From the NCBI GenBank assembly GCA_947165135.1, contig CAMUZE010000007.1, positions 1 to 55,144 on the forward strand: DNA of 55,144 nucleotides. The letters run 5' to 3'. The notes under the pieces were generated by a model. That model did no database searches, was not told where the DNA came from, and was given only the letters and a program-made list of their open reading frames with translations. Below, one piece after another: positions 19,743 through 27,442 of this stretch (the stretch's first letter is position 1; each line of letters begins with the position of its first letter). The position numbers and the translations under genes were made by a program. The DNA comes from an uncultured Clostridia bacterium. GTDB lineage: Bacteria > Bacillota_I > Bacilli_A > RF39 > UBA660.

Positions 19743-19751
19743 TGATAAAAT
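19743..19751 (+). promoter_or_regulatory. Extended -10 promoter, mini-leader type
   Basis: TGATAAAAT lies 16 nt before the ATG at 19768. GGTGA at 19758-19762 coincides with the predicted transcription start. Confidence 0.6.
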
Positions 19752-19767
19752 AAAATAGGTGAAGAAT

Positions 19768-21150
19768 ATGAAAAAAATAATAATTCCATTAATACTAGTT
19801 ATATTACTTTTAGTAGTGGGAGTATATGGTTATGTAGAGCATATTAATAATCAAATAATTTCTATAATAACTTTAGATATTAATCCTAGTATTGAAATTA
19901 ATTTAAACAAAGATAATAAAGTAGTAAAAGTTATTGCTTTAAATGATGATGCTAAAGATATTATTAATAATAATTTAAAAGGTAAAACTTTAGATGAAAC
20001 ATTAAAATCAATTACTAATAATGTAATTGAAAAAGGTTATGCCGAAAAAGATTATGTTGCAATAATTTTATATTCAAAAGGAAATGTTGATAATGAAAAA
20101 GTAAAACAAAACATAGAAAAAAATTTTGAAGTTAAACAAAAAAGAGTAGAGATTGTTGTAGTGGAATCAGTTACCAAAGAAGATGAAGAACTTGCTAAAA
20201 AGTATAATATTAGTCCTGCCAAAGTATCTTATATTGAAACTATAATAAGTGATAAAGAAAATATTAGTGTTGAAGATTTCTCTAATAAACCAGTAGATGA
20301 ACTTAAAGATACTAAAGAAACTGGTAATTATTGTCCTGATGGATATATGTTAGAAGGATCTTGGTGTTTTAAGGAAGCTGGTAAAAAAGCAGCAAGAAAT
20401 GGTGAGGTATGTCCAAGTGGGTATTTTGAATATAAAGGAAAATGTTATGAGGAAACAGGTGTAATAGACACTGGAAATGTTTCATGTCCAGATGGATTTA
20501 CTCTAGAAGCCAATGATTGTATAAAGAAAAACTATATTAATGCATCAGTAGAAAGTTATATATGCTCTAAAGGTATGGTAAAAACAAAAGGTGAAGTTGG
20601 CATGGCTCCTATGGAATCTGGTCCTGCTAGAGAAGTAGTATGTGTTGATACAAAAACTACACGTCCAGTTACTGTTTGTAATTTACCAGCAAGTGATCCA
20701 ACAGAACGTATGTCATATAATGGAAAATGCTATTGGCATAAGGCTCCAGTTATATCTTCTGGTTGCCCTGGAAAAATAAAAGTAAAAGGTTTCTGTTGGG
20801 ACTCAGCAGAAGGTGTATACATGTGCCCAAATGGTTATAATAGTAATAAGAGAACAAAAGATGATGAGTGTTATACAGTACTAAAAAATGTTAAACCAAT
20901 AATAAGTGGCTATAAGTGTGATGATGAAAATATGATTCTTGAAGGTAATAAATGTATAGTTATAGAAAAAGCTGGTCTAATACATGAAAGAATGTGCCCA
21001 GATAAAGCAACTTTAATTGATAATGATCACTGTATCAATTTAGATAAAATTATTGATAAAGTATCGGGATATATTTGTGATGAAGAGCATACAAGATTAA
21101 AAGGTAATGAATGTATTATATATGAACAAATTGAGTCATTACATTATTAA
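19768..21150 (+). CDS. RsgI-like extracellular protein with Cys-rich repeats
   Basis: This is a 460-residue protein. The ATG at 19768 behind GGTGA is preferred to an in-frame GTG that forms part of the ribosome binding site. Only three residues precede a transmembrane helix (about 4-24), so the cytoplasmic anti-sigma domain of true RsgI is absent. Residues 30-110 (SIITLDINPSIEINLNKDNK, KVIALNDDAKDI) match the extracellular middle domain of RsgI-type anti-sigma factors. From about 185 to the end lie repeated Cys modules of the form C-P-x-G-Y/F-x-L/Y-x-x-x-x-C (CPDGYMLEGSWC, CPSGYFEYKGKC, CPDGFTLEANDC and looser copies), resembling oocyst-wall-type repeats. It is a likely surface protein stabilised by disulfides. 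No sigma-I gene is adjacent. Confidence 0.75.
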   Translation: MKKIIIPLILVILLLVVGVYGYVEHINNQIISIITLDINPSIEINLNKDNKVVKVIALNDDAKDIINNNLKGKTLDETLKSITNNVIEKGYAEKDYVAIILYSKGNVDNEKVKQNIEKNFEVKQKRVEIVVVESVTKEDEELAKKYNISPAKVSYIETIISDKENISVEDFSNKPVDELKDTKETGNYCPDGYMLEGSWCFKEAGKKAARNGEVCPSGYFEYKGKCYEETGVIDTGNVSCPDGFTLEANDCIKKNYINASVESYICSKGMVKTKGEVGMAPMESGPAREVVCVDTKTTRPVTVCNLPASDPTERMSYNGKCYWHKAPVISSGCPGKIKVKGFCWDSAEGVYMCPNGYNSNKRTKDDECYTVLKNVKPIISGYKCDDENMILEGNKCIVIEKAGLIHERMCPDKATLIDNDHCINLDKIIDKVSGYICDEEHTRLKGNECIIYEQIESLHY

Positions 21151-26315: not shown

Positions 26316-26996
26316 ATGAAAAAATTAATTTATATTTTATGTGGTTTTGTTATTGGAGGATTAATAACTTATTGTATATTTGGATGTAATAATTTAAGAC
26401 CTCTACCAGCACAAGAAAAATCTGAAGGCTTAAGAGGAGTTTATGATATAGATAAAAACATCAATGAAAAAACTATTGATAATTATTTAGATAGAAGTGA
26501 TGTTGTGTATCGTGATGTTAGAATGCTTGAAGATACTGCAACATGGGAGAATAAAGGTGGAGAAAGAAATCTAACTGGATTTGTTCGTGGATTTGAAGTA
26601 ATTCCTTATGCATATTTAACAGAATTCCCAGAAGAATATGTAGAACAAAAAAGACAGGAAAATGTAAGTGGTTTATATAGTGGTAAAACATTATTTAGAT
26701 TAGAAAATGGCAAATATGTTGCGAACTATAAAGAATCAATGGAAATACTAGAATATATATTTCCAAAAGATAAAACTATATTCTTAATGTGTGGAGCAGG
26801 TGGATATGCTAACTTTACAAAACAGATGTTAGGGGCACTCGGATGGGATACATCAAAAATATATAACGTTGGTGGATTTTGGAGTTATGATGGTAAAAAT
26901 GCTATTAGTACTGTAATTGAAGGAACAAACAAATGTGATTTTTCTAAAGTTCCATATCATAATATAGATTTTAGTAGACTTACAGAGGTTAAATAA
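26316..26996 (+). CDS. Exported rhodanese-like lipoprotein
   Basis: This 226-residue protein has an N-terminal hydrophobic signal ending in the possible lipobox IFGC (Cys24), so it is likely anchored outside the membrane. The rhodanese fold is visible: DVVYRDVRM (first strand and conserved D-x-R), VIPYAYLTEFPEE, and the active-site loop FLMCGAGGYA with C159, followed by LGALGWDTSKIYNVGGF. Rhodanese-like domains carry persulfide or act on thiols. The next gene, overlapping by one base (TAATG), encodes a thioredoxin-like lipoprotein, which suggests a joint extracytoplasmic thiol function. Confidence 0.85.
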   Translation: MKKLIYILCGFVIGGLITYCIFGCNNLRPLPAQEKSEGLRGVYDIDKNINEKTIDNYLDRSDVVYRDVRMLEDTATWENKGGERNLTGFVRGFEVIPYAYLTEFPEEYVEQKRQENVSGLYSGKTLFRLENGKYVANYKESMEILEYIFPKDKTIFLMCGAGGYANFTKQMLGALGWDTSKIYNVGGFWSYDGKNAISTVIEGTNKCDFSKVPYHNIDFSRLTEVK

Positions 26997-27442
26997 TGTA
27001 TAAGAAAGTTTTAATATTAATAGTTTGTATTTTCATGTTAGCTGCTTGTTCTTCTAAAACTATTGGAGATGTTGAACTTGATAATATATATTATGGTAGT
27101 AATGATTATATTGAAATAACAAGTGATTATTTTGAAGATACAAACCCTAAAAATTATGTAGTATTTGTTCATAATACTTTTTGCTCACTAAGAGTCCCAT
27201 GTCAAAATATATTTAAAGAATATATGGAAAAATATAATATTAGTTTTCTATCAATAAACATAGATGAATATAAAAAAACATCTCTATATAAGGATGTTAA
27301 ATATGTTCCAACTGTAATAGTAGTTAGTGATAATAAAATAGTTGCATATTTAGATGCAGAAAAAGATGAAGATTTAGATAAATATCAAGATATTAATGAA
27401 TTTGAATCTTGGATTAATAAGTATATTAAATATAATAAATAA
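26996..27442 (+). CDS. Thioredoxin-like lipoprotein with a C-x5-C site
   Basis: This 148-residue protein has a signal peptide with lipobox LAAC (Cys18). The mature part has a thioredoxin-like order of strands and helices (YVVFVHNTFC, then FLSINIDEY, then KYVPTVIVVSDNK with the cis-Pro position). The cysteines lie at C63 and C69, in FCSLRVPC. This is C-x5-C rather than C-x2-C, so a standard dithiol active site is not present. It is translationally coupled to the rhodanese gene, and the terminator hairpin overlaps its stop codon. Confidence 0.75.
   Translation: MYKKVLILIVCIFMLAACSSKTIGDVELDNIYYGSNDYIEITSDYFEDTNPKNYVVFVHNTFCSLRVPCQNIFKEYMEKYNISFLSINIDEYKKTSLYKDVKYVPTVIVVSDNKIVAYLDAEKDEDLDKYQDINEFESWINKYIKYNK

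Follow-up and report, generated by a model that had tools for sequence, protein, structure and literature searches.

SEAL work published in PNAS in 2023 is said to have found that RsgI fragments remain together until they are pulled apart. The RsgI papers, in the parts available to us, present the SEAL-type domain as the self-cleaving input stage of a sigma-factor switch, and the accessible portion of one of them describes autocleavage of the periplasmic domain, first-strand separation, and RseP and ClpXP steps (PMC12203970). According to the same portion, C. thermocellum RsgI8, which is without the self-cleavage motif and does not cleave itself, was nevertheless degraded by ClpXP in that study, and signalling by B. 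subtilis RsgI is not completely stopped when cleavage is blocked (PMC12203970); cleavage is therefore not always the key step. Among the RsgI sensor domains listed in the available part of that paper, there is no Cys-rich repeat (PMC12203970).

Here we describe a protein encoded in a 55,144-nucleotide stretch of DNA (the window) that shares with RsgI of B. subtilis and C. thermocellum (PF23750) the domain sequence, the predicted fold, the juxtamembrane place and the Asn-Pro site. In contrast to RsgI, this protein, SEAL-Cys20, has a three-residue cytoplasmic tail and lacks the features by which RsgI is recognized as an anti-sigma factor, namely an RsgI_N domain, an adjoining sigI gene and a SigI in the genome (91% complete). 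We propose, with a probability of about 0.5, that SEAL-Cys20 is a surface protein whose self-cleaving SEAL domain would act as a releasable anchor and not as a sigma-factor switch.

The SEAL-Cys20 protein and its predicted cut site

SEAL-Cys20 consists, in order, of the MKK tail, one transmembrane helix and a juxtamembrane SEAL domain, from which a helical linker leads to a C-terminal part containing 20 cysteines (Table 1). Ile4 sits between MKK and the transmembrane helix of the AF2 model, and a GTG at 19759, given as the start in the list of open reading frames, overlaps the AGGTGA ribosome-binding site. Cytoplasmic tails in the 25 aligned members are about three to eight residues long as read, with the start codons of L097, L100, L109 and L115 picked by hand; in-frame ATGs lie further upstream in L097 (+6 residues) and L100 (+36 residues), and the starts of L109 and L115 require GTG and TTG.

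Table 1 Features of the SEAL-Cys20 gene (positions in the window).
Feature	Position	Strand	Basis
Extended -10-like promoter element TGATAAAAT	19743..19751	+	comparison across 25 members
Ribosome-binding site AGGTGA	19757..19762	+	sequence
Tail-less SEAL-Cys20 gene, 460 aa + stop	19768..21150	+	ATG start; full-length relatives
Cytoplasmic tail MKK	19768..19776	+	short throughout 25 aligned members as read
Transmembrane helix, aa 5-27	19780..19848	+	AF2 model
RsgI_M / SEAL domain, aa 32-157	19861..20238	+	Pfam PF23750; PDB RsgI chains by profile and fold
Predicted self-cleavage site Asn39/Pro40, inside DINPS	19882..19887	+	25/25 members; PDB chain starts
20-Cys ectodomain, aa 189-460, ten Cys pairs	20332..21147	+	sequence; predicted to be mostly beta strands

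The initial annotation recognized the middle domain of RsgI in this protein, and a domain search bears this out. PF23750 (RsgI_M) scores 86.2 bits in the protein scan and 89.3 bits in the genome scan, against a cut-off of 25.3, and the match spans positions 2-132 of the 133 in the profile; it is the sole RsgI_M match of the genome at E<=0.001, a search that very divergent SEAL domains may escape. Six RsgI entries of the PDB are matched by the 25-member profile (E 1e-7 to 1e-11). For the AF2 model (mean pLDDT 83.7), the top ten Foldseek matches are all RsgI (E 9e-6 to 4e-4), and VIA gives Z of 10.9-12.5 against the six RsgI entries, with the next row at 5.6. By sequence and predicted fold, then, the RsgI part of SEAL-Cys20 is a genuine SEAL domain.

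The Asn39-Pro40 pair falls after the first strand, as does the scissile pair of RsgI_M / SEAL domains. Moreover, Pro40 aligns with the first residue of PDB chains 8her_B, 8hdj_B, 8heq_B, 8hep_B and 8u9o_B, as expected of an outer fragment after cleavage; the sixth RsgI entry, 8t9n, is the GGG mutant of B. subtilis RsgI, with its insert directly before NPS. Residues T35, D37, I38, N39, P40 and S41 are invariant among the 25 aligned members, and DINPS is kept in all of them while most of the SEAL domain varies.

By analogy with RsgI biochemistry, the chain would cut itself between Asn39 and Pro40, and a 39-residue stub comprising the tail, the transmembrane helix and the first strand would retain the 421-residue outer part via the beta-sheet. 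If the ectodomain were then pulled or bound, the outer part could peel off, resulting in shedding or detachment, and the stub might be exposed to a site-2 protease after release, with no transcription response. The part that would signal to transcription is missing and the tail and transmembrane helix are little constrained, whereas the cut site and outer part are strictly kept. Most simply, then, what is useful here is the cut-and-hold joint itself. Such a joint is said to be useful by itself in the SEA domains of eukaryotic mucins, which cut themselves, are held together non-covalently and shed the ectodomain; their likeness to SEAL-Cys20 is one of idea only. A cut site that is kept without a cytoplasmic output separates the joint from the switch and makes the usefulness of the joint directly testable, and SEAL-Cys20 provides a compact model protein with which to study how bacterial ectodomains are released under force. 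Sortases are predicted to be absent from some reduced, thin-walled orders of Bacilli (RFN20 and ML615J-28), according to the accessible part of one source (PMC10868615), and in these orders another way to hold or drop surface proteins could matter.

SEAL-Cys20 could instead be static, with the SEAL domain a mere stalk that lifts the Cys part above the membrane and any cleavage without a role. A protein of this kind would fit a gene that has no partner, a -10-like element of its own and a neighbourhood kept only among close relatives, and other Cys-repeat proteins of the lineage manage with plain transmembrane helices or lipobox-like starts. A mere stalk needs no scissile pair, however, so the invariance of DINPS amid a variable domain counts against this reading, which we consider doubtful.

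In 24 of 25 members, the highest-scoring -10-like element is found 20-30 bases 5' of the start, 22 of these with TG; the mean score is 6.2, compared with 5.06 in single-base shuffles and 5.4 for the top of 300 shuffles. We take this extended -10 to be of the SigA kind. Because it is seen in the upstream regions of most relatives, expression driven by sporulation, and with it a sporulation role, is not favoured, despite the sporulation sigma factors retained. An operon with the downstream DUF218 and ABC genes was also rejected, as that gene order is common only to the window and its closest relative, L090; other shared gene orders were seen in the close pairs L102/L107, L105/L106 and L112/L114.

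Sigma partners and sigma-linked relatives

According to the initial annotation, only three residues lie inside the cell, the sigma-binding part of RsgI is missing and no sigI is adjacent. These observations stand: MKK is all that precedes the helix apart from Ile4, RsgI_N (PF12791) is not matched at E<=0.001 anywhere in the window's genome (43 contigs totalling 1.24 Mb; completeness 90.8%, contamination 5.2%), and no sigma gene was found in the window, in 10 wider loci or in 26 related loci that extend up to 8 kb per side, some of them cut short. Seven long-tail SEAL loci served as a control for the sigma search, and six of them scored (L087 gave none); four of these six had helped to build the sigma profile, so that L118 and L130 are the independent ones. 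A second profile, which combined the sigmas of this genome with SigI and was run without a control, had no matches at the loci. A sigma partner may have been missed, given a genome completeness of 91% and flanks shorter than 1.5 kb on one side of four of the 26 related loci.

The best SigI candidate anywhere in the window's genome reaches 42 bits, compared with the TIGR02895 cut-off of 185; the initial annotation had named a sigI-like gene elsewhere, together with a conserved interaction motif in the short cytoplasmic end, as a finding that would speak against it, and no SigI over the cut-off was seen. It had also suggested surveying genomes for the fusion and for sigI. This survey found the fusion in 10 of 337 genomes, and nine of these ten carriers are without SigI over the cut-off and without an RsgI_N match, the exception in both searches being G154. 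In G154, a canonical SigI-RsgI pair (L008, G154:C49) lies on a 4.7-kb contig separate from the SEAL-Cys20 gene, and this contig is possibly contamination.

Six sigma-70 proteins in the window's genome fit best to SigA, SigG, SigE, SigK, SigH and SigF, that is, to housekeeping or sporulation types, although at this level only SigA and SigK exceed the cut-off. None of the six was recognized as ECF-type, and a profile of 16 SEAL-linked sigmas gave at most 16 bits on any of them. The weakest, the SigH-like L006 (about 100 bits), is preceded by an rRNA methyltransferase-like gene, a known neighbourhood of sigH. As a side observation, a sporulation-type sigma set (H, F, E, G and K by best match; L002-L007) is retained in this 1.24-Mb genome.

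A sigma-independent role of the SEAL-Cys20 family is thus supported, as far as sequence can tell, because there is no cytoplasmic domain, no sigma gene was found at the loci and nine of ten carriers show neither SigI over the cut-off nor RsgI_N. The initial annotation proposed such a role, structural or sensing, for the lineage; this holds for the SEAL-Cys20 family and fails lineage-wide, since long-tail SEAL genes directly follow sigma genes in the same bacterial family, so that sigma-linked and sigma-free SEAL proteins coexist. In these other proteins, the cytoplasmic tail runs to roughly 45 residues, and their genes come directly behind a small sigma gene; Pfam finds Sigma70_r2 and r4 in all seven of these preceding genes that were tested, and three tested long-tail SEAL proteins have RsgI_M scores of 90-103 bits and a PepSY ectodomain. 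Judged by these domains, the sigma/SEAL-PepSY pairs are a variant of SigI-RsgI. They share the SEAL domain with SEAL-Cys20, whereas the tail of ~45 residues, the PepSY domain and the upstream sigma gene are theirs only. Sigma/SEAL-PepSY loci were seen at L088 8506-10588, L089 8739-10588 and L023 755-2523, with similar ones at L014, L018, L027 and L035. More divergent SEAL-like families of the same bacterial family (L046-L076) have INP followed by other residues, and the repeats of some of these proteins look InlB-like by eye.

Tail-less SEAL proteins also occur next to sigma genes. Thirteen loci were picked for having two SEAL genes, so their number is not a frequency. Each encodes a small sigma factor (Sigma70_r2 matched in 13/13), a longer-tail SEAL protein (doubtful in L163) and a short-tail SEAL protein; judged by eye, 12 of the 13 short-tail proteins begin in a lipobox-like way. 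Such trios of sigma, long-tail SEAL and tail-less SEAL genes, found in Bacilli and related bacteria, include L167 7315-10502, L168 21-3342, L156 7331-10541, L126 6341-8627 and L165 3148-6338, as well as L153, L163, L197, L199, L205, L207, L210 and L213. The long-tail and short-tail SEAL proteins of L209 are closely similar, as they would be if a gene had been duplicated and one copy had then lost its tail. Among the papers listed in literature searches, no title or abstract mentions tail-less SEAL proteins, although an earlier mention may have escaped these searches.

For a quick SEAL tree, 157 of 168 distinct matches were kept (profile span >=100), giving 158 rows with the window. The SEAL-Cys20 family forms one group (SH-aLRT 99; 25 rows, L114 among them), and it nests in a larger group (support 93, not starred) in which 48 of the 87 rows are long-tailed, with tail classes assigned by a simple script and no topology predictor. 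Because of this nesting, descent of SEAL-Cys20 from a sigma-linked SEAL ancestor is favoured by the tree, although not proven. Tail classes, so assigned, switch many times across the tree. More broadly, and as a tentative extension that we would not yet bet on, the SEAL domain freed from sigma control may be a general, self-cut and force-breakable quick-release joint with which a bacterium of reduced genome puts up and sheds Cys-laced surface rods, and tail-less SEALs may be a widespread second class, derived several times over from SEAL genes of anti-sigma type, with some kept as trio partners.

SEAL-Cys20 might also be a sensor that has no dedicated sigma factor: loss of the ectodomain would let a site-2 protease cut the stub, and the signal would be passed on by the peptide set free or by a partner protein in the membrane; elsewhere, tail-less SEALs may tune an adjoining sigma/long-tail pair, and the trios in other Bacilli would suit this idea. 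The protease is at hand, with a site-2 protease match in all ten carriers and an RseP-type length (frames of 347-439 aa) in nine, the window's genome included. Yet SEAL-Cys20 is the genome's one RsgI_M match, divergent SEALs aside, none of its six sigmas was recognized as ECF-type, and the tail and transmembrane helix are little conserved among members and show no constraint (dN/dS ~1.1, on nine changes only). We therefore regard a sensor of this kind as improbable and retain the releasable anchor as the preferred reading.

Distribution and the cysteine-rich ectodomain

SEAL-Cys20 is a conserved but patchy family. A contig scan yielded 26 relatives with the Cys part (L090-L115) among the 80 kept of 186 relatives; a separate, earlier search had listed 80 places, of which 71 were read. 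The Cys-part relatives comprise 25 with a single open frame and L114, whose frame is interrupted; leaving out L114 and L106, whose protein is identical to that of L105, and adding the window gives the 25 aligned members. A ruminant is named in the record titles of 14 of the 26 loci. Searched for alone, the Cys part gives 11 matches, spread over 10 of the 337 genomes surveyed from the order (E<=4e-80; next match 7e-13). Across 395 genomes of the class, there are three full-length matches, all of the same family, among the matches listed, and the others listed end by residue 212. The sole genome of the same genus in the sample, G632, has no match, and the gene therefore looks accessory. Comparison with the nearest relative gives dN/dS of 0.23 overall, 0.31 for the SEAL part and 0.17 for the Cys part; these substitution ratios show SEAL-Cys20 to be under purifying selection.

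The 20 cysteines lie at aa 189-449 and are invariant at 20/20 positions among the 25 aligned members, as against 9/254 other ectodomain positions. The pairs are regularly spaced, and in 23 of 25 members the first three are C-x10-C, spaced by 14 and 13 residues. About eight C-P-x-G-Y/F modules had been reported here; the strict C-P-x-G-[YF] motif was counted four times in the window's protein and 0-3 times in other members, and ten Cys pairs are the better description of this part of the sequence. Although VKOR and DsbA families have no match at E<=0.001 in any of the ten carrier genomes, the presence of 20 ectodomain cysteines in every one of the 25 members, in the regular pairs that ten disulfides would be expected to give, makes it very improbable that they bind metal or store thiols in an anaerobe in place of forming disulfides.

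A separate model of the ectodomain (pLDDT 87.8, pTM 0.45) consists mostly of beta strands. It has no match in the PDB at E<=0.001, an absence that does not show a new fold; VIA gives a best Z of only 2.4, and two BFVD matches below 0.001 have TM-scores of at most 0.12. Pfam searches with the Cys part of 11 members returned nothing at E<=0.01 except one Sushi match (E 0.0083, 1/11), and the EGF-like/cEGF search gave 14 bits for cEGF, under the cut-off of 26.6. A viral origin was rejected, as no relative was seen among viral contigs, and no second copy of the Cys part was found in the same genome. The initial annotation likened the modules to oocyst-wall-type repeats. In the oocyst wall proteins (COWP) of apicomplexans, type I repeats have six cysteines each, according to the available part of one paper (PMC4514997); they share regular Cys spacing with SEAL-Cys20, which has two-Cys units and 20 cysteines in total, and the likeness is visual only.

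The profile of the Cys part matches 76 of 337 genomes at E<=0.001, mostly weakly, and all 20 regions fetched (20/20) contain an open frame with at least eight cysteines and three units; many of these frames have a transmembrane helix near the start and some a lipobox-like start. The two-Cys unit thus recurs in other proteins and is surface material shared across the lineage, here placed on a SEAL anchor. The lineage-wide two-Cys repeat (C-P-x-G-Y..C) occurs in long proteins at L232-L251, many with an N-terminal transmembrane helix, and at L244 and L245 also in neighbouring lipoprotein-like genes of ~240 aa. Finally, positions 26316-27442 of the window hold two adjoining genes whose products have secretion-type starts. 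The second is thioredoxin-like (23.7 bits) and has a CxxxxxC stretch, and the pair possibly encodes extracellular redox proteins.
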